Part shown: positions 23,680-37,596 of the stretch, one piece after another
Layout of the letters: each line of letters begins with the position of its first letter
Numbering within the stretch: the stretch's first letter is position 1
Made by a program: the position numbers and the translations under genes
Source: a bacterium
GTDB lineage: Bacteria; RBG-13-66-14
Assembly (NCBI GenBank): GCA_035528375.1
Contig: DATKYS010000106.1
Span: 1 to 37,791 of the forward strand
Length of the DNA: 37,791 nt
Reading direction: 5' to 3'
Notes under the pieces: generated by a model
What the model saw: only the letters and a program-made list of their open reading frames with translations
What the model was told of the DNA's origin: nothing
The model's database searches: none

Positions 23680-26600
23680 TTACCTCACCGTGGCCGCTTC
23701 TCCCACGTCGTTATCCGACGGAGTGACGCGGAAAACGACGTCCTCGGCGTCCACGCCGAAGAGGTCCGTGAACGAATCCCACACCACGTCGCCGGAGTAA
23801 GCGGCACCGGTCAGTTTCTCCGTGGCGTTTTTCACTGTGGCGGCCCGCCAGGTGCTTCCCCCGTCAATGGAGAACTCGCAGAGAATGTCGAGCGGGTCGC
23901 CCTCGCGGTCGGAGAGGGTGTAGGGGATGATGATGTCGCCGAAGACCTCGGCCTCTACCGCGCCCAGGGCGACCGACGGCGGGTCGGAGTTGTCCACCTG
24001 GAAGTTGACCGTGGCGTCCAGCTCGCCCACGTCGTTGTCGGCGGGGGTGATGCGGAACTGCACCTGGAAGAGGTCGAGCTCGTCCACGTCGAGCGCCGAG
24101 TTCCAGACGATGGTCCCCGCGTACCCCGAGGACGCGATGGCGGTGGTCTGCCCGGTGACGGCGGCCGGTTTCCAGGTCGCTCCGCCGTCCGGGGAGTACT
24201 CGCAGGTCAGGCTTACGGGATCACCCTCGCGGTCGGCGATCTGATAGGCGATGGTGACGTCCTTGGTCTGCTCCGTGGTGATATCGGTGAGCTGGATACT
24301 CGGCGGATCGGAGTTGTCCACCTGGAAGGGCGCCGTCTGGTCGGGGGCGCCGGTGTCGTTGTCCGCCGGGGTCAGGCGGAAGACGACGGTGGTCGAGTCC
24401 AGGGTGTCCATGTTGGATTTGGAGTTCCACACAAGGCTGCCCGAGTAGGCGGTGGCCTGTATCTTGGTGATGGTGCCGATGACCACGGCCTCCTTCCAGG
24501 TCACGCCGCCGTCTATGGAGTACTCGGGCGTCAGGTTCACCGGATCGCCCTCGCGGTCCGAAATTTTATAGGCGATGGTGACGTCGGTCGTCTGTTCGGT
24601 GGTGATGTCGGTAAGGACGATGGAAGGCTCATCGGAGTTGTCCACCTGGAAGACGCCCGTGGAGATCGGCTCGCCTGTGTCGTTGTCCGAGGGCGTCAGA
24701 CGGAACTGCACCTCGAAGAGGTCCAGCATGTCCGTGTCGGTCTTGGAATTCCACACCAGGGACGACGAATAGTCGAGCGACGCGATGGCCTCGGTGCGGC
24801 CCGTCACCGTCGCCGGCTCCCAGGTCTTGCCGCGATCGCGGCTGAACTCGGGTTTCAGGGAGATCGGGTCGCCCTCGCGGTCCGAAATTCTATAGGCGAC
24901 GACGACATCGTTCGTCTGCTCGCCCTCGGGGGTCACCAGGGCGATGGTCGGCACGTCGGAGTTGTCCAGGCGGAAGGGTCCGGTCACCGACGGCTCGCCC
25001 ACGTCGTTGTCCGCGGGGGTGAGGCGGATGGTGACCGTTTCCAGATCCACCAGGTCGGTGTCGTGCTTGGAGTTCCACTCCAGGCTGCCCGCGTAACCGG
25101 CGGGCTGGATGCCGGCGGGCTGGCCGATGTCGGCCAAGGCGGTGATGGTGGCCTCGCGCCAGGTCTTCCCGCCGTCGGAGGACCACTCGGGAACGAGGGT
25201 GACGGGGTCGCCCTCGCGGTCGGAAATCCGGTACTCCACCTTCACGTAGCCGTTCTGCTCCGCGGTTATCGGTGTCAAGGCCACCATCGGGGCGTCGGAG
25301 TTGTCCACCTGGAAGGTCGAGGTGACGTAGGGCTCGCCCGTGTCGTTGTCCGAGGGCGTCAGCCTGAACTGCACCTCGAACAGGTCGAGTTGGTCCGTAT
25401 CGGACTTCGAGTTCCACACGAGGGATCCCGTGTAGCCGGACTGGGCGATGGCCTCCGTCTTCCCCGTCACCGTCGCCGGCTCCCACGTACCACCCGAGTC
25501 ACGGCTGAACTCCGGTTTGATCGAGATCGGGTCGCCCTCGCGGTCGGAAATCTGATACGCGATGGTCACGTCCTTGACCTGCTCGCCCGAGGGAGTGGTA
25601 ACGGTGACGGACGGCACGTCGGAGTTGTCCACCTGGAATGGGCCGATTTCGAAGGAGGTGCCCTCGTCGTTGTCGAAGGGGCGCAGACGGAAGTGGGTCT
25701 GGAAGTTGTCCACGCGGTCCATGTCCACCGCCGACTGCCAGGTGATGCGTCCCGCGTAGGCCGTCTGGGTGATGGCCTCCACGGCGCCGGTGACCATGGC
25801 CGGTTTCCAGGTCTTGCCGCCGTCGGGCGAGAATTCCGGAACGATGGACAGTGGGTCGCCCTCCACGTCGGCCAGGGTGTAGGAGACGACCACGTCGCCT
25901 GACTGCTCCTCGGTGATGGCCGCGATGGTCACGCTGGGCTCGGAGGAGTTGTCCACCTGGAAGGCCTTGTTCTGGCCGCTCTCGCCGACGTCGTTGTCCG
26001 ATGGGGTGACGCGCAGGACGACCTGGCTGGAATCCACTCCGCGGATATCGGACACCGAATTCCAGACGAGGCTCCCCTCGTAGGGGGTGGGGCCGACGCG
26101 CTCGGTCATGCCGGTGACGGTGGCCGGCTTGAAGGTGGCGCCGCCGTCCAGCGAGTACTCCACCTTCAGGTTCACGTAGTCGTTCTCCCGGTCGTTGACG
26201 TTGTAAACCACTTCCACGTCGCCCGTCTGCTCGCGCTCGTAATCGGCGACGTTGACCTTGGGCACGTGGTTGTCGTCCACCTGGAAGGCGGGCGTGACGC
26301 CCGGCTGGCCCGTGTCGTTGTCCTCGGGGGTAATGCGGAAGACCACCTGAGTGGAGTCCAGGCCGTCCATGTCCGCCACCGATTCCCAGACGAGCTCTCC
26401 GGTGTAGGCGGCGATGGTGAGGCCCTTGGTGGTGGCCTCCTTCCATGTGGAGCCGCCGTCGGCGGAGTACTCGGGCAGGATGGCCGAAATGTCGCCCTCG
26501 TCGTCGAAGAGGGAGTAGTGGATGACGACGTCGCCCTCCTGTTCGCCCTGGACGGGGTCGAGCTTGGCGCTGGGGACGGCGTTGTTGTCGAGGTGGAAGG

Positions 26601-28887
26601 GTCCGATCCTGGACTCCTCGCCCGGGTCGTTGTCCGCCGGGGTCAGCCGGAAGACCAGGGTGTTCAAGTCGGCGCCCAGAAGGTCGGTCTTCGAGTTCCA
26701 GACCACGCGGCCCCGGTAGAGCTCCGGCGTCAGCTTCGTCAGTTGGCCCGTGGTGGTGGCGGGCTCCCAGTAGTTGCCGCCGTCCTGGGAGTACTCGGCC
26801 ACCATGGAGAGCGTGTCGCCCTCCACGTCGGTCAGGGTGTAATCGAAGGCTATGTCGTCGGTCTGCTCGCCCTCGAGCACCGTGGCGATGGTGAGCGCGG
26901 GCTCGAAGCTGTTGTCCACCTGGAAGGCGCCGATGGAGCCGGTCGTGCCCTCGTCGTTGTCGAAGGGCCGGATGCGGAAGTGGATGTCGGTCTGGTCGGT
27001 GCCGCCCGTGTCGGAAGCCGAGTTCCACACGATGGTGCCCGCGTAGGCGGAGGATGAGATGCCCGTGGTCTGCCCGGTCACCGTCGCCGGCTTGTAGGTC
27101 GCACCAGCGTCGTCGGAGTACTCGCAGACGATGGACAGAGGGTCCCCCTCGCGGTCGGCGAGTTTGTAGCTGACGGGTATGTCGGAGGTCACCTCTTGGG
27201 TGATGGCGGTGAGCATGACCGACGGCGGCTCGGAGTTGTCCACCCAGAACGCGCCGGTCTGGGCGGTGTCGCCGATGTCGTTGTCGCTGACGGTGAGCCG
27301 GAAGACGATGTTCTTCTGGTCGCGGCCGTCGAAGTCTTTGATGGAGTTCCAGGTTATCTCGCCGCGGTACGCGTCGGGTCCTATCCCGGTGGTCTGACCG
27401 GTCACCGCGGCCGGCTTGAAGGTGACGCCGCCGTCGTCGGACCACTCGGCGTTAATCGCCAGCGTGTCGTGCTCGCGGTCGTCCAGGGAGTAGCTTATCG
27501 GGATGTCTCCTGTGGACTCCTCGATGATATTGTCCACCACGAGGCTCGCCGGGGCGTCGTTGTCCAGGCGGAAGGCCAGGGTGGTGGAGGGCGATTCGCT
27601 GACGTCGTTGTCCTGGGCGGTCAGGCGGAGCATCGTACCCGGGGAATCCACCTGGTCGGCGTCCGTGACCGAGAGCCAGGTGACGGTCAGGCTCGGCAGC
27701 GCCGAGTCGTAGCCGCGGACGAGGGACCTGTCCAGCGGCTCGATGGACTCCTTCGTCGTGGCCGGTTTCCAGGTGGAGCCGCCGTCCAGGGAATATTCGA
27801 GGACGATGTCGCAGATGTCGTCCTCGATGTCGTCTATGGAGAAGGTCAGCAGAACGTCTCCCGTCACCTCCTGGGTGATGTCCACCACCCGGGCCGACGG
27901 CGGGGCGTTGTTGTCCACCTGGAACGGGACGGTGTCGTCCTCCTCACCCTCGTCCAGATCGCTGGCGATGATGCGGAACTGGATGGCCGACTCGTCCAGC
28001 GCGGGCAGGTCCTTGTCGGAACGCCAGACCAGGACGCCCTTGGAGCCGTCCGGGGAAGAGGGGACGCCGGCGAGCTTGCCCTCCACCGTGGCCTCGTTCC
28101 AGGTCTGGCCGAAATCTTTGGAGAAATAACACACCAGGCTGCAGGAGTCGCCCTCCTCGTCCATAACCTCGAAGCTGATGTCCACGCCGCCGTACTGTTC
28201 GCCGGTGAGGTTCTCCACGTACATTGACGGCGGTTGGTTGTTGTCCAGGACGAAGGGGCCCAGGACTGTCCGCTCGCCGGAATCGCGGTCCGAGGGTGTA
28301 ACGGAGAAGATGCACTTGTCCACGTTCAGGTTGGGCAGGTCGGCCATGGAATCCCACCACAGCTGGTCGGTGTAGTGGGCCTTGTCTATGTAGTCGGTGT
28401 TGCCCTCGATCCAGGCCTCGTGCCAGGTGGCGCCGCCGTCAATGGAGTACTCGGCCACGAAGGAAAGCTCGTCCGCCTCGTCGTCCTCCAGCCTGTAGTC
28501 TATGAATACGTCCTCGGTCTGCTCGCCTTCCAGAGGCTCGAAAACCACCCGGGGCGGGTTGTTGTTGTCCAGGTGGATGATGGAGGACTCGATGGCGCGC
28601 CCCAGACCCGTCTGATCCTTGGGCATGAGCTTGATCTTGATATCGGTGTCCTCTACATGGTCCAGGTCTTCACGGCTGTGCCAGGTGAGGGTACCGTTGT
28701 ACTGGCTCTTGGACAATCCCTCCACCTGACCCGTGGTCGAGGCGTAGTGCCAGTAGAACCCCGAGTCGTCGGTGAACAGCACCTCGAGGTCCACCAGGTC
28801 GCTCTGGCGGTCCTCGATGTGGTAGTGAACCACGATGTCGCCGGTCTGTTCGCCCTCGATGGGGTCTATGGTGACATCGGGCACCTC
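23680..28887 (-). repeat. Array of 16 tandem ~324-bp coding repeats
   Basis: Sixteen in-frame units, period about 324 bp, inside the giant gene. Five further units continue in the next gene (about 21930-23490). N-terminal units 1-5 are diverged. Units 10-16 share long nearly identical stretches, mainly around the DREGDP and SDNDxGE codons, so the 3' part expanded or was homogenised more recently. Confidence 0.9.
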
Positions 28888-30225
28888 GCCGTGACCGAAG
28901 AGGGTGACGTGGGAGGGGTTGTTCAGGAACATGGGCCAGGGCTGGTTCGCCACCCTGTACGACCCGCTCCCCATCTCGAGGCACTCGATCTTCCCGGCGA
29001 AGTTCGTGCCGTAGACTATCTCGGTGGCGCCGTTGCCGTCCAGGTCGCCTATGGCGGGGGTGCTCCGTATGGGGAAGCCCTGCATCCCGGTCCAGGGGAA
29101 GCCGGAAACCTCGATGCCGGTGGTCTCCCAGGCGTAGATGACGCCGTCCTCGGCGCCGACGACGATGTCTATGTAGCCGTTGCCGTCTATGTCGCCGATG
29201 CTGGTCGAGCCCTTTATCGGGGAGGGAGAGCCGCCGTCCACCGTGGTAGCCTCGAGAGGGAAGCCGGGCACCAGGCGCCCGTCGTCCTTGAAGGCGTACA
29301 CCCGTCCGTCGCCCGAGGCGATGACCACCTCCACGCTGCCGTCGCCGTCCACGTCGGCGAAGGCGGGTGACGATTGGAAGATGCGGTACTCGGTGGTCAC
29401 CGGCCAGCCCGACATGAGCGTCCCGTCGGGCCTCCAGGCGTAAACCTTGAAGTCGTAACTGCCGACGACGATTTCCAGGTATCCGTCGGAGTCCAAGTCG
29501 CCCAGGGCCGGCGAGCTCTTCACGGAGAAATCGGTGTGCTGGGGCCAGCCCTCAAGGACGGTTCCGTCGTGGTTGAGGGCGTGGACCAGGCCGTTGTCGT
29601 CGCCGATAAGAATCTCCAGCCTGCCGTCGTCGTCAATGTCGCCCACGGTGGGGGAGCTCTCGCTGGGGGCGCCCAGGTTGTAGGGGAAACCGGGAAGAGC
29701 GTAGCCGCGGTAGTCCCAGCCGTAGAGGTAGCCGTCCTGGCTGGCGATGAGGACATCCGCGTAGCCGTTGTCGTCCAGGTCCGCGATGACCGCGGAGCCG
29801 CGGACGGAACCCCCGGTGGTCTTGGGCCACCCCGGAACGCTGGTCCCCGAGTTTTCGACGGCGTACACCTTGCCGTCCTCGGAGCCGAAGACTATCTCGG
29901 GTCGGCTGTCCCCGTCTATGTCTCCCGCCGCCGGCGAACTGAAGACGGGTCCGCCGGTCTGGACGAACCAGGAGATGAGGAAGGAGCCGCCGCTCGAGCG
30001 GTAGGCATAAACACGGCCGCCACCGGAACCGATGACGACCTCGGGGCGCCCGTCGTTGTCAAGATCCACGAGGCAGGGGCTGGACTCGACGACCCGATTG
30101 GCCTCAATGTCGGCGTCGGCCCGCGCCACCCACTTCGAGGATACGCCCAGGGCCGACGTCGTCAGGAGGAAGGTCAGGATGACAACCGCGGAGATACGGA
30201 GCGACGACCTGTTGGTAAAGTTCAT
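23680..30225 (-). CDS. Giant secreted protein: FG-GAP/VCBS propeller plus 16 repeat modules
   Basis: 2181 residues. Signal peptide (about 1-27, ISAVVILTFLLTTSALG). Residues about 45-430 hold eight FG-GAP/VCBS-type repeats, each with a calcium-loop-like DxDxDG (DLDNDGRPEVV, DIDGDSRPEIV, DLDDNGYADVL, DIDDDGRLEIL, DLDSDGYLEIV, DVDGDGSVEVV, DIDGNGYIDIV, DLDGNGATEIV), predicting a beta-propeller. From about 447 to the end run 16 modules of about 108 residues, each with D(R)EGD, an Asp-box-like SxDGGxTW, a WNS strand and a DNDxGE turn, joined by VDNSxPP linkers. The last module stops before its linker. No LPXTG, T9SS tail or membrane anchor is seen. Function unknown; a large calcium-bound adhesive or surface protein is likely. 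It has its own promoter. Confidence 0.9.
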   Translation of the reverse strand: MNFTNRSSLRISAVVILTFLLTTSALGVSSKWVARADADIEANRVVESSPCLVDLDNDGRPEVVIGSGGGRVYAYRSSGGSFLISWFVQTGGPVFSSPAAGDIDGDSRPEIVFGSEDGKVYAVENSGTSVPGWPKTTGGSVRGSAVIADLDDNGYADVLIASQDGYLYGWDYRGYALPGFPYNLGAPSESSPTVGDIDDDGRLEILIGDDNGLVHALNHDGTVLEGWPQHTDFSVKSSPALGDLDSDGYLEIVVGSYDFKVYAWRPDGTLMSGWPVTTEYRIFQSSPAFADVDGDGSVEVVIASGDGRVYAFKDDGRLVPGFPLEATTVDGGSPSPIKGSTSIGDIDGNGYIDIVVGAEDGVIYAWETTGIEVSGFPWTGMQGFPIRSTPAIGDLDGNGATEIVYGTNFAGKIECLEMGSGSYRVANQPWPMFLNNPSHVTLFGHGEVPDVTIDPIEGEQTGDIVVHYHIEDRQSDLVDLEVLFTDDSGFYWHYASTTGQVEGLSKSQYNGTLTWHSREDLDHVEDTDIKIKLMPKDQTGLGRAIESSIIHLDNNNPPRVVFEPLEGEQTEDVFIDYRLEDDEADELSFVAEYSIDGGATWHEAWIEGNTDYIDKAHYTDQLWWDSMADLPNLNVDKCIFSVTPSDRDSGERTVLGPFVLDNNQPPSMYVENLTGEQYGGVDISFEVMDEEGDSCSLVCYFSKDFGQTWNEATVEGKLAGVPSSPDGSKGVLVWRSDKDLPALDESAIQFRIIASDLDEGEEDDTVPFQVDNNAPPSARVVDITQEVTGDVLLTFSIDDIEDDICDIVLEYSLDGGSTWKPATTKESIEPLDRSLVRGYDSALPSLTVTWLSVTDADQVDSPGTMLRLTAQDNDVSESPSTTLAFRLDNDAPASLVVDNIIEESTGDIPISYSLDDREHDTLAINAEWSDDGGVTFKPAAVTGQTTGIGPDAYRGEITWNSIKDFDGRDQKNIVFRLTVSDNDIGDTAQTGAFWVDNSEPPSVMLTAITQEVTSDIPVSYKLADREGDPLSIVCEYSDDAGATYKPATVTGQTTGISSSAYAGTIVWNSASDTGGTDQTDIHFRIRPFDNDEGTTGSIGAFQVDNSFEPALTIATVLEGEQTDDIAFDYTLTDVEGDTLSMVAEYSQDGGNYWEPATTTGQLTKLTPELYRGRVVWNSKTDLLGADLNTLVFRLTPADNDPGEESRIGPFHLDNNAVPSAKLDPVQGEQEGDVVIHYSLFDDEGDISAILPEYSADGGSTWKEATTKGLTIAAYTGELVWESVADMDGLDSTQVVFRITPEDNDTGQPGVTPAFQVDDNHVPKVNVADYEREQTGDVEVVYNVNDRENDYVNLKVEYSLDGGATFKPATVTGMTERVGPTPYEGSLVWNSVSDIRGVDSSQVVLRVTPSDNDVGESGQNKAFQVDNSSEPSVTIAAITEEQSGDVVVSYTLADVEGDPLSIVPEFSPDGGKTWKPAMVTGAVEAITQTAYAGRITWQSAVDMDRVDNFQTHFRLRPFDNDEGTSFEIGPFQVDNSDVPSVTVTTPSGEQVKDVTIAYQISDREGDPISIKPEFSRDSGGTWEPATVTGKTEAIAQSGYTGSLVWNSKSDTDQLDLFEVQFRLTPSDNDTGEPYVTSTFQVDNSDAPMVALTPITAEQNGYVKVEYRISDREGDPVTLVPEWSSDGGKTWREATITALADIGQPAGIQPAGYAGSLEWNSKHDTDLVDLETVTIRLTPADNDVGEPSVTGPFRLDNSDVPTIALVTPEGEQTNDVVVAYRISDREGDPISLKPEFSRDRGKTWEPATVTGRTEAIASLDYSSSLVWNSKTDTDMLDLFEVQFRLTPSDNDTGEPISTGVFQVDNSDEPSIVLTDITTEQTTDVTIAYKISDREGDPVNLTPEYSIDGGVTWKEAVVIGTITKIQATAYSGSLVWNSKSNMDTLDSTTVVFRLTPADNDTGAPDQTAPFQVDNSDPPSIQLTDITTEQTKDVTIAYQIADREGDPVSLTCEYSPDGGATWKPAAVTGQTTAIASSGYAGTIVWNSALDVDELDLFQVQFRITPADNDVGELDATVNFQVDNSDPPSVALGAVEAEVFGDIIIPYTLSDREGDPLDILCEFSIDGGSTWRAATVKNATEKLTGAAYSGDVVWDSFTDLFGVDAEDVVFRVTPSDNDVGEAATVR

Positions 30226-30658: not shown

Positions 30659-33985
<3,327 letters not shown>

Positions 33986-33989
33986 ACGA

Positions 33990-34586
33990 GTGGGAACCCC
34001 GTTGAACGACGAGCCCGTCTTCCAGTTGGTGGATTTCGTCGCCAGCCCCACCCAGGAGCCGATCAACCTGAGCCTGTCGGCCGGCGGCCTCGCCACACTC
34101 ACCCTGCTCCGGGGCGAGCGCCGGTCCCTCGTCCGGGCCGTCCTGACCGCCCGGCGCCACCGGGGGCGGATGCTCCTGCCCCCCGACGGTTGGGTGCCGG
34201 GCTCCGCGCCTCCCGTCACCCTCGTCGTCCGGAACACGCCGCCGCGGAACCGCGTCGCCGTCTGGCTCGGCGAACCGCCCTTCCCCTCCCTCACCCCCGC
34301 CGAGGCCCTGCTCCTGGCCGCACGCACGGGCGGGTCGAGACTCTACGATCCCCAACGGCTGCTCGCTCCGCTGGGCCTGTCGGAAGGCGACGGACCGTCT
34401 GGAAAGTTGAGCGGGCCGGACCGGGCCAAGCTGGGCCTGGCGACGGCCCTCGCCACCGAGCCGGTGGTGATTATCGCGGATAACCCCCTCGCCGGCCTGG
34501 ACGCCGGTATGCGGGAGAAAATTTTCGACTCCCTTCGCGCGCTTCTCGGGCCGTCCTCGTGCCTGTACCTGGACGGCGACCGATGA
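33990..34586 (+). CDS. Degenerate ABC ATPase homologue (predicted pseudo-ATPase)
   Basis: 198 residues. The architecture is that of an ABC ATP-binding domain, but the catalytic parts are eroded. Where Walker A should be it reads RGERRSLVRAV (42-47 core), with the glycine loop shortened and the Lys replaced by Arg. The signature is LSGPD (140-144) instead of LSGGQ. Walker B reads IIADNPLAGLD (161-171), with the catalytic Glu replaced by Asn. The helix after the signature (AKLGLATALATEP) is intact, which supports the assignment. The start is uncertain: GTG at 33990 or TTG at 34002, neither with a strong ribosome binding site. It overlaps the permease by ATGA. A non-hydrolysing partner of the permease is my inference. 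Confidence 0.75.
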   Translation: MGTPLNDEPVFQLVDFVASPTQEPINLSLSAGGLATLTLLRGERRSLVRAVLTARRHRGRMLLPPDGWVPGSAPPVTLVVRNTPPRNRVAVWLGEPPFPSLTPAEALLLAARTGGSRLYDPQRLLAPLGLSEGDGPSGKLSGPDRAKLGLATALATEPVVIIADNPLAGLDAGMREKIFDSLRALLGPSSCLYLDGDR

Positions 34587-35329
34587 TCGGTGTCTGGTTC
34601 ACCTACGGCGTCGTGGACGCCCTCCGGCGGCGGCGGCTCCTTCTGGCGTACCTGGTCGGGCTCGGCGCGCTCATCGTTTCCGGCCTGGCCCTGACGGGGC
34701 GCCTCATCGAGGCCCCCCTGGGCCAGCAGCTCGTCCTCCTCACCCGCAACCTCCAGTCGCTGGCCTACTTCCCCCTGAGCCTCGTCCTGGGGTTCTTCTT
34801 CGGCATGGACGCCGCCGGCGAGGCCACCGGAACGCCGTGGCTCTTCTTCGGCGCCACCCGGGCCTCGGGCCGCTTCACGTACCTCTTCGGGCGCCTCCTG
34901 GCCGCGCTGGTCCTGGCCCTCACCGCGCTCCTCTTCCTTTCACTGACGGCGGGGATCGTGCTCTGGGCCGCGACGGGCAGCTTTTACGCTTTAATCCTGG
35001 ACGCGGTGCTCCTCCTTTTCCCCGGTCTTTTATTCATGACGTCGCTGGGCTACTTCCTCCGGCTGCACCTGTCGGTTCCAACCGCGACCGGCGTAGGGCT
35101 CGTCGTGGTCGGGGTCTCCTTCGGGCTCCCCCTTTTGTGGGATCCGCTCTACTACGCGCTGCCGGCGCTCTTGCCCCTTTTCGCCGACCACACCGCGATG
35201 GCCGATTTCCACGCCGTCACCCGCTACCCCTTCGAGCTGGTCCAGCTCGCCGGCTGGAGCGCGGCCCTCGTCCTGTTCGCCCACTTCCGCCTGGGGCGGC
35301 TCTGGTTCGACGACCCCTTCGGGGGGTAA
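34583..35329 (+). CDS. ABC-2-like multi-pass membrane protein
   Basis: 248 residues with about six hydrophobic segments (LLLAYLVGLGALIVSGLAL, SLAYFPLSLVLGFFFG, LLAALVLALTALLFLSLTAGIVLW, LILDAVLLLFPGLLFMTSLGYFL, ATGVGLVVVGVSFGLPLLW, LAGWSAALVLFAHF). The topology and its position overlapping an ABC ATPase homologue (ATGA) indicate an ABC-2-type permease, although sequence motifs of that family are weak. No substrate can be inferred. Confidence 0.75.
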   Translation: MIGVWFTYGVVDALRRRRLLLAYLVGLGALIVSGLALTGRLIEAPLGQQLVLLTRNLQSLAYFPLSLVLGFFFGMDAAGEATGTPWLFFGATRASGRFTYLFGRLLAALVLALTALLFLSLTAGIVLWAATGSFYALILDAVLLLFPGLLFMTSLGYFLRLHLSVPTATGVGLVVVGVSFGLPLLWDPLYYALPALLPLFADHTAMADFHAVTRYPFELVQLAGWSAALVLFAHFRLGRLWFDDPFGG

Positions 35330-35371: not shown

Positions 35372-35761
35372 ATGAGTGAGCCCCTGGACAAGTTCGACGA
35401 GGTCTTCGGCGACCTCGACCATAGTTACTCGCACCGGGCCTACCGCTTCGTCCTGGCCGCGGTGGGTCACCTCGTCGGCCGGCTTTCCGAGCCGCGGCAC
35501 ATCACGGGGCAGGAGCTCCTCGTCGGGCTGGTTGACCTGGGCCGCAACCACTTCGGGCCGCTCGCCGGCGAGGTTTTTGCCGAGTGGGGGGTCAAGAAGC
35601 CGCTGGATTTCGGCAAGATTGTCTTCGAGCTCGTCCGGGTGGGCCTCTTGGGCAAGACCGCCGAGGACGACCTGCACGATTTCGAGAAATTCCCGGGATT
35701 CTCCCGCATCGGGAAGGACTACGACTGGCTCGGTGAGGTACCGCCCGAGGACGAGCGATGA
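35372..35761 (+). CDS. Minf_1886-family conserved protein, function unknown
   Basis: 129 residues. The pattern AYRFVLAAVGHLV, then RHITGQELLVGLVDLGRNHFGPLA, WGVKKPLDFGKIVFELVRVGLLGKT and DFEKF matches the family I know as Minf_1886 (conserved in Planctomycetes, Verrucomicrobia and some candidate phyla). It is cytoplasmic and helical, with no catalytic motif visible. It stands alone between its own promoter and a terminator, and is probably translated from a near-leaderless message. Confidence 0.8.
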   Translation: MSEPLDKFDEVFGDLDHSYSHRAYRFVLAAVGHLVGRLSEPRHITGQELLVGLVDLGRNHFGPLAGEVFAEWGVKKPLDFGKIVFELVRVGLLGKTAEDDLHDFEKFPGFSRIGKDYDWLGEVPPEDER

Positions 35762-35785: not shown

Positions 35786-35808
35786 GGCGGTCCGGACGGA
35801 CCGCCTTT
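35786..35808 (+). terminator. Terminator after the Minf_1886-family gene
   Basis: GGCGGTCC (35786-35793) pairs with GGACCGCC (35798-35805) across GGAC and is followed by TTT and a T-rich stretch. A second perfect hairpin lies just upstream (35763-35768 with 35773-35778). The T run is short, so termination may be partial. Confidence 0.6.
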
Positions 35809-35815
35809 GCATTGC

Positions 35816-35844
35816 TTTACAGAAACCCGCTTTGCCGCTATAAT
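35816..35844 (+). promoter_or_regulatory. Sigma70 promoter for the DUF362-SPOR gene pair
   Basis: TTTACA (35816-35821), a 17-bp spacer and a perfect TATAAT (35839-35844), about 20 bp upstream of the DUF362 ATG. Confidence 0.75.
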
Positions 35845-35864
35845 CGCGAAAAAGTGAGGTGAGG

Positions 35865-36980
35865 ATGGCCTCCCGGGTGCATCTGTTGTGCCTGACCGAG
35901 AGCCGCCGGAAAAGCTCCCTGACCCTCTTCGTCCCAATGCTGAGGACTGCCGGCCTGGCCGGCGTCATCGGCGAGGGCGACATCACCGCGATCAAGCTCC
36001 ACGTGGGCGAGCCGGGCAATCTGGCCTACATCCGCCCCCCCTACGCGGAGGCGGTGGTGGACCTGGTTCGGGAGCTCGGGGGTAAGCCGTTCCTGACCGA
36101 TTCGACTACACTCTACACCGGCCGGCGCCGCAACGGGCTGGACCTCATGCGCACGGCGGAGCGCCACGGTTTCGCCGGCGTGAACACCGGCGCGCCCTTC
36201 CTCCCGGCCGACGGCCTGAAAGGCGACGAGGCCGTAACGGTGCCGTCGCCCGTGGAGGGGAACCCGCCGGTGCACCTGGCCGCCGCCGTGGCCAAGGCCG
36301 ACACCCTGGTCTGCCTGAGCCACTTCAAGGGCCACGAGTTGACCGGTTTCGGCGGGGCGCTCAAGAACCTGGGCATGGGTTGCTCCACCAAGGCGGGCAA
36401 GTTCTACCTGCACAACCAATCCAAGCCCTTCGTGGACGCAAAGCGCTGCACGGGTTGCGGCCGGTGCCTGGAGTGGTGCGCCTCCGAGGCGATAAGAATC
36501 GAAGACGGGACCGCCGCAATCCTGGAAACGAGCTGCACCGGCTGCGCCCACTGCCTCATGTCCTGCCCGGAAAACGCCATCCGCTTCAAGTGGGACCGGG
36601 CGCCGGCCGAGGTGCAGCGGCGCATCGCCGAGTACGCCGCCGCCCTGGTGAAAACCGTCAGGGGCAAGGTTTTCTTCGTCAACTTCGTCACCGACGTGAG
36701 CCCGGCCTGCGACTGCTACCCTTTCAACGGGCCGCCCCTGGTGGCCGACCTGGGCATCCTGGCCGGCACCGACCCGGTGGCCGTGGACGCCGCGAGCTGG
36801 CGATTGGTCAACGAGGCCCCCGCCCTACCCGGCTCGGCGGCCGAGGGCGCGGAACCTGGAGAGGACAAATTCCGTCATATATACCGGGACGTGGACGCGG
36901 GGGTCCAGCTAGTCGAGGCTCAGAGGCTGGGACTCGGCACGACGGCGTTCGAGCTCGTTCAGGAGGTCGGCCGTGGGTAA
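35865..36980 (+). CDS. DUF362 protein with a two-cluster ferredoxin domain
   Basis: 371 residues. The DUF362 fold flanks an inserted ferredoxin: AIKLHVGEPGNLAYIRPPY near the N terminus, CLSHFKGHELTGFGGALKNLGMGC (about 150-175), then two 4Fe-4S motifs, CTGCGRCLEWC (about 195-205) and CTGCAHCLMSCP (about 224-235), and DLGILAGTDPVAVDAASW near the end. Members are soluble iron-sulfur proteins with mostly unknown redox roles. The ATG at 35865 follows GTGAGGTGAGG; the in-frame GTG at 35859 is less well placed. It overlaps the following SPOR gene by 8 bases. Confidence 0.92.
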   Translation: MASRVHLLCLTESRRKSSLTLFVPMLRTAGLAGVIGEGDITAIKLHVGEPGNLAYIRPPYAEAVVDLVRELGGKPFLTDSTTLYTGRRRNGLDLMRTAERHGFAGVNTGAPFLPADGLKGDEAVTVPSPVEGNPPVHLAAAVAKADTLVCLSHFKGHELTGFGGALKNLGMGCSTKAGKFYLHNQSKPFVDAKRCTGCGRCLEWCASEAIRIEDGTAAILETSCTGCAHCLMSCPENAIRFKWDRAPAEVQRRIAEYAAALVKTVRGKVFFVNFVTDVSPACDCYPFNGPPLVADLGILAGTDPVAVDAASWRLVNEAPALPGSAAEGAEPGEDKFRHIYRDVDAGVQLVEAQRLGLGTTAFELVQEVGRG

Positions 36981-37596
36981 TCTCCAGTACGGTGAACCGA
37001 TGCCGCCCGCGAGGAAAAAGGCCGGGATCGCCTTCACCGGGCTGATTCTGGCCCTGGTGATAATCGTCGCCGGCGGGACCTTCCTCCTCACCCAGACCTG
37101 TGAAAAGGCCACCGAGGAGGCCGAGGACGCCCAGGAGGTCCTCGTGGAGGCCCCCGACGTGAACCCCGACGGGGAAAACACCCGCGAGCTCGTCTTCTAC
37201 ACCAGTGAAGGGGAGCTCGTCGTCATGCCGAGCGAGGTGGCCGAGGGTGAGGCGCCCGAAGAGCAGCCCCTGGAGCTCCCGCCCGAGCTGGTCAAAATCA
37301 TGGAGGGCAACGGCCAGCACACCGTGGCGGGAAGCGGTTCTACCGATGGCAACGTGACCTACTCGGTCCAGGTGGGGGCCTTCGGCGAGGCGGAGAACGC
37401 CAGCAGCCTGGCGGATAAACTGGGCGCCGACGGGTATCGGGCCTACGTCGTCGAGCCCCTGGCCTCCGACGAAAAGCCGCTGTACCGCGTCCGGGTCGGG
37501 CCGTTCCACGACCCGGAGGAGGCCGCCGGGACCGCCGCCGAGCTGCAGGAGAAGTACGGGCTCTCCCCCTACATCCCCCATCAGCCGGCCCAGTGA
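36973..37596 (+). CDS. Single-pass membrane protein with a C-terminal SPOR domain
   Basis: 207 residues. A short cytoplasmic segment, one transmembrane helix (about 19-40, IAFTGLILALVIIVAGGTFLL), an acidic linker (about 42-125) and a SPOR domain (about 128-203: YSVQVGAFGEAENASSLADKL, YRVRVGPFHDPEEAAGTAAEL). SPOR domains bind septal, denuded-glycan peptidoglycan, so a role at the division site is likely. The GTG start has GGAGG 6 nt upstream, and the gene overlaps the DUF362 gene by 8 bases. Confidence 0.9.
   Translation: MGNLQYGEPMPPARKKAGIAFTGLILALVIIVAGGTFLLTQTCEKATEEAEDAQEVLVEAPDVNPDGENTRELVFYTSEGELVVMPSEVAEGEAPEEQPLELPPELVKIMEGNGQHTVAGSGSTDGNVTYSVQVGAFGEAENASSLADKLGADGYRAYVVEPLASDEKPLYRVRVGPFHDPEEAAGTAAELQEKYGLSPYIPHQPAQ

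Follow-up and report, generated by a model that had tools for sequence, protein, structure and literature searches.

What use can a bacterium have for an ABC ATPase homologue that has lost most of its ATPase motifs, and whose gene stands between secA and a permease gene that it overlaps? Degenerate NBDs are mainly known as one half of asymmetric transporters with one working ATP site. The window considered here, i.e., the whole stretch of 37,791 nucleotides that was analysed, corresponds to contig C106 in a genome of 2.63 Mb (G000), and the gene, hereafter psi1, occupies an open reading frame (33990-34586, plus strand) directly 3′ of secA. The comparison set comprised 14 Coatesbacteria genomes in five families, f1 to f5, with the window genome in f1. 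The features discussed below are collected in the table.

Table. Features of the psi1 locus and of psi2; positions refer to the window unless a genome and contig or locus are named.
Feature	Position	Strand	Basis or remark
secA (1108 aa), first gene of the block	30659..33985	+	Pfam SecA_DEAD 1.5e-108, SecA_SW, P-loop_SecA, SEC-C
psi1, degenerate ABC NBD	34002..34586	+	ABC homology, fold, conservation, dN/dS
former Walker A position, LLRGERRS	34104..34127	+	alignments to intact ABCs and relatives
former signature position, LSGPD	34407..34421	+	LSWPD, LNELD, LTVSE in relatives
Walker B, VVIIADN	34464..34484	+	Asp retained, catalytic Glu -> Asn
permease (248 aa), putative remote ABC-2 relative	34583..35329	+	ATGA overlap with psi1; hhalign; hydropathy
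Minf_1886 family gene (129 aa)	35372..35761	+	TIGR04138, 90.6 bits vs cut-off 60; synteny
terminator-like hairpin, possible end of secA unit	35786..35805	+	consensus match only; 3 found vs 2.0 expected
sigma-70-like promoter, 11/12, 5′ of DUF362 gene	35816..35844	+	1 found vs 0.1 expected
DUF362 + 4Fe-4S protein, conserved neighbour	35859..36980	+	Pfam DUF362 1.9e-48
SPOR-domain membrane protein, conserved neighbour	36973..37596	+	Pfam SPOR 1.1e-18
psi2, second degenerate ABC NBD	G000:C55 (L077) 1655-2209	minus	
psi2	G010 L069 3451-4023	minus	between GT9 and PGA_cap genes
psi2	G012 L068 1850-2389	minus	between GT9 and PGA_cap genes

The reading frame of psi1 can be opened at GTG 33990, which would leave 4 nt after the secA stop and give 198 residues, or at TTG 34002, which leaves 16 nt and gives 194 residues; the latter is the start common to relatives (TTG in G010, ATG in G011). 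The permease start lies within the last psi1 codons, in the ATGA overlap that the first-pass annotation, made from the window sequence alone, had reported, and overlaps of 4-7 nt are present in all four complete pairs (G000, G010, G011 and G012). That annotation also spoke of a fusion in an operon, of which the overlapping genes stand, but not a fused protein. No frameshift or stop is present in any copy of the pair examined. Moreover, independent relatives carry the pair, including a close one in the public record Candidatus Coatesbacteria CSMAG_1439 (DAOVLG010000198.1), which rules out an assembly or frame artefact.

Profile searches and the predicted fold both show psi1 to be a true ABC NBD homologue. 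The protein matches ABC proteins of the PDB (3e-9 by phmmer, 5e-11 by profile search), ABC families of NCBIfam (4e-7) and, over residues 20-183, the intact ABC proteins of the phylum (hhalign P 97.8%, E 1e-12), and it falls short of the Pfam ABC_tran gathering score (16.6 bits vs 25, E 0.012). An AlphaFold2 model built from four sequences is of modest confidence (mean pLDDT 62.6, pTM 0.66); all of its 50 top Foldseek matches are ABC NBDs or transporters (best E 1.9e-7), with moderate TM-scores of about 0.5, so that the model supports the fold class only. An ABC fold is thus predicted, in keeping with the architecture claimed at first pass. A search for defence systems with PADLOC gave mad3 as the sole match, which covers psi1 residues 134-187, a generic ABC part, and was rejected.

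The loss of Walker A, signature and catalytic glutamate, on which the first-pass reading was built, is read directly in the alignments. The P-loop GxxGxGK[ST] has become LLRGERRS in the window, where one glycine and the serine of the octet remain, and its Gly-Lys is replaced by Arg-Arg in all five copies (including the G013 fragment). The LSGGQ signature is likewise gone in every variant listed in the table, and the catalytic glutamate is replaced by asparagine in the window and by asparagine or aspartate in relatives. A second correction to the earlier description concerns the Walker B aspartate, which is kept in three of four copies, that of the window among them. The H-loop histidine is absent, the protein ending in SCLYLDGDR. 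Invariant residues are concentrated in the Q-loop/coupling region (11/26) and in the helix that follows the signature (6/12), and are few in the signature (1/7) and D-loop (1/6). The conservation pattern of active NBDs is the opposite of this one.

The permease matches no Pfam family and does not reach the ABC2_membrane gathering score. Profile comparison relates it, through a weak match, to one ABC-2 family in Coatesbacteria (hhalign E 2.1e-5, P 77%, 113 columns), and the phylum's other membrane proteins, including another ABC-2 type, stay above E 0.08; the permease is a putative remote ABC-2 relative. A search for permease homologues found none in 276 genomes outside the phylum, and beyond the pairs described below its only match was a distant ABC-2 permease in G001, paired with an intact NBD. 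The six helices of the earlier description are found by hydropathy in G010, G011 and G012, but the same cut-off gives only four in the window copy. The AlphaFold model of the permease was unusable (pLDDT 45.5) and was left out of the fold search.

The first-pass reading would have failed if relatives carried a normal ATPase and psi1 evolved neutrally, or if no ABC fold were predicted; neither outcome was observed. The pair sits 3′ of secA in G000, G010, G011 and G012, four complete pairs in two genera, each with the same pseudo-ATPase followed by a permease, and the motif loss is common to three genera. In G000, G011 and G012 the pair is flanked by secA and the Minf_1886 gene, and in G010 it stands at a contig edge with the end of secA just upstream. 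In G013 the start of psi1 is seen after secA, and then the contig ends; the DUF362 gene of that genome is truncated by the end of a different contig, and the absence of the permease is thus probably an assembly gap. The pair was not found in the 70% complete G008, where an unrelated gene follows secA and Minf_1886 lies elsewhere; the 75% complete G009 assembly is without secA. In families f2 to f5 secA occurs without the pair beside it, and the psi1 pair was not detected in any of their seven genomes. Selection was assessed by pairwise codon maximum likelihood, with 2dlnL taken against w = 1. For psi1, w is 0.147, 0.124 and 0.091 (2dlnL 51, 75 and 95), and each half of the gene by itself is far below 1; for the permease it is 0.100, 0.058 and 0.049. 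In the wider comparisons dS is high, which makes the w values there approximate. For comparison, secA gave 0.061, Minf_1886 0.058-0.073, an intact ABC control 0.087, GT9 0.114 and PGA_cap 0.137, so that psi1 is constrained like a working protein. A recent pseudogene is ruled out by conservation and dN/dS, and the earlier remark that the intact frame speaks against simple decay holds.

The genes around the pair are conserved as well. In G010 and G012 the order is psi1, permease, Minf_1886, DUF362, SPOR, GT9, psi2 and PGA_cap, and in G012 one additional small ORF separates SPOR from GT9. In the window genome, the hairpin after Minf_1886 and the promoter-like site before the DUF362 gene suggest that secA, psi1, the permease gene and Minf_1886 may form one transcript. 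Upstream, on the minus strand (23680-30225), the window encodes a protein of 2181 aa whose N-terminus carries FG-GAP/VCBS-like repeats and which contains many repeats of about 100 aa (EGEQTGDV...). The P-loop domain of SecA contains a Cys-rich insert (CCIRCRR...CSTCPK; window 32678-32848) that is matched in f1 relatives, and the matches of f2 to f5 SecA break at this stretch.

A search for partners of psi1 revealed psi2, an ABC protein of 180-190 aa encoded by the window genome on its contig C55. Its place in the block is read in relatives, as the window contig ends after SPOR: psi2 lies within the psi1 block in G010 and G012 and beside block genes in G013 and G008. In G000, G010 and G012 the psi2 gene stands between those for GT9 and PGA_cap and overlaps its neighbours. 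Unlike psi1, psi2 passes the Pfam ABC_tran cut-off. In four genomes it carries GxxGSGR[TS], with the Walker A lysine replaced by arginine, and LDQ, with glutamine in place of the glutamate; G008 has one conservative variant at the residue after the arginine, and G013 lacks the P-loop and has arginine in place of the glutamate. The glycine loop and an SxGE-type signature are retained in most copies, and w is 0.24 between G000 and G010. A sister relationship of psi1 and psi2 is unsupported (P 32%). The retention of psi2 in a genome without a detected psi1 (G008) suggests that they can act separately.

Judged from its sequences, the pair is a real and conserved ABC pair, predicted to be ATP-dead, in one family of Coatesbacteria. 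Given the selection, the overlap with the permease gene and the retained packing surfaces, psi1 most likely serves as a fixed subunit with a structural or regulatory role. We consider it probable that psi1 is a non-hydrolysing subunit of this kind for its permease, the two being the repurposed remains of an ABC transporter kept for a new use. Psi1 would retain its NBD fold, together with the faces used for packing against a membrane partner, ATP binding and hydrolysis having presumably been lost. The overlapping genes would allow both proteins to be produced together, and psi1 would most likely be bound to the cytoplasmic face of the permease, in a complex that works without an ATP-driven stroke of psi1, be it as a scaffold, a passive gate or a regulated membrane protein, in the setting of an envelope-related gene block. 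What the data demonstrate is homology, motif loss, common descent within one family, purifying selection and the gene overlap; complex formation, the loss of ATP binding and the function of psi1 are what we infer. Of the regulator of membrane traffic envisaged at first pass, what stands is an ABC homologue that is intact, under selection and probably non-hydrolysing, and that is coupled to a permease.

The first-pass annotation had also proposed a link to Sec function, in which the pair would regulate or assist the SecA/SecYEG translocase. Position is what speaks for it, as the pair follows secA directly in G000, G010 and G011 and is also next after secA in G012 and G013. However, the gap between the two is 16, 21, 84 or 279 nt in different genomes, the two largest outside the genus of the window, the secA of G008 has a different neighbour, and f2 to f5 have secA and no detected pair, all of which argues against a specific Sec role. 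The block moreover continues with the Minf_1886, DUF362, SPOR, GT9 and PGA_cap genes, and since the genes beyond the pair are likewise conserved, its proximity to secA seems to reflect no more than a shared place in a conserved block; a Sec accessory is accordingly most improbable. (The 279-nt gap, in L006 of G012, contains a long inverted repeat, CCGCCGGACCTGGCACGGTTTTTGC, perhaps a mobile or terminator-like element.) A former transporter pair in slow decay, with no present function, would explain the extreme motif loss, the branch length of 2.25 changes per column in the NBD tree, the apparent absence from G008 and a w slightly higher than that of the neighbouring genes. Against such a relic stand the intact frames, the retained overlaps, the persistence across three genera and the low w of either half of psi1, far below 1, and we regard it as very unlikely.

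A possible, if doubtful, alternative to a fixed subunit is that psi1 forms an asymmetric transporter with psi2 or with an intact NBD encoded elsewhere, the partner supplying ATP binding. Candidate partners exist: 29 ABC_tran matches are spread over many contigs of the genome, and psi2, with its glycine loop and SxGE-type signature in most copies, belongs to the same block. In known asymmetric transporters one composite site stays canonical, formed by the P-loop of one NBD and the opposing signature of its partner, and degenerate sites with a substituted Walker A lysine are known from ABCG5/G8, where it is Arg, and from Pdr5, where it is Cys and the Glu is Asn (PMC7756269). In psi1, though, P-loop and signature are both gone, and it would therefore complete neither composite ATP site with any partner. 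As for psi2, it is itself degenerate (Lys to Arg, Glu to Gln, and no P-loop in G013), it occurs in G008, where psi1 and the permease were not found, and it is not especially close to psi1. An NBD encoded at another locus could nevertheless supply the permease with energy. It is also conceivable, though unlikely, that psi1 and psi2 have both given up ATP hydrolysis and form a nucleotide-independent cytoplasmic frame for the permease, as an envelope pseudo-transporter.

A fixed, non-hydrolysing subunit remains the reading that we favour, and in that case a short, separate NBD without either half-site, under selection and coupled to a permease, would provide a natural test of what NBDs do beyond using ATP, a question sharpened by the second degenerate NBD in the same block. 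No matching bacterial ABC pair with a pseudo-ATPase or ATP-dead NBD was found in the open-access literature. As to origin, an intact ABC-2 family (alignment A3) is present in all seven f2 to f5 genomes and gives only weak generic matches in f1; its NBDs are complete where read. This complementary distribution suggested that psi1 descends from the intact pair, but the AU test rejects the grouping of the NBDs (p-AU 0.013), psi1 standing on its very long branch with weak placement.

Among known systems, the pair is comparable to ABC-2 pairs (a DrrA-like NBD with ABC2_membrane), in which an NBD gene is likewise followed by that of a permease of about 250-270 aa with six helices, the number that hydropathy gives in G010, G011 and G012. 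The likeness extends to the weak profile match of its permease to the ABC-2 family whose NBDs are intact in other Coatesbacteria; the pair differs in the lost NBD motifs, in a permease that reaches no Pfam family and in a tree that keeps psi1 apart from the NBDs of that family. With the intact pair of f2 to f5 it shares a putative remote permease homology, and that pair occurs where the psi1 pair was undetected, but the intact pair has a complete NBD (GRNGAGKTT and LDEP) and lies away from secA where both positions are known. Psi1 resembles ABCG5/G8 in its substituted Walker A lysine and Pdr5 in its Glu to Asn exchange (PMC7756269). On the other hand, TM287/288, TmrAB, ABCG5/G8 and Pdr5 all retain one canonical composite site, whereas psi1, having neither P-loop nor signature, would complete neither.
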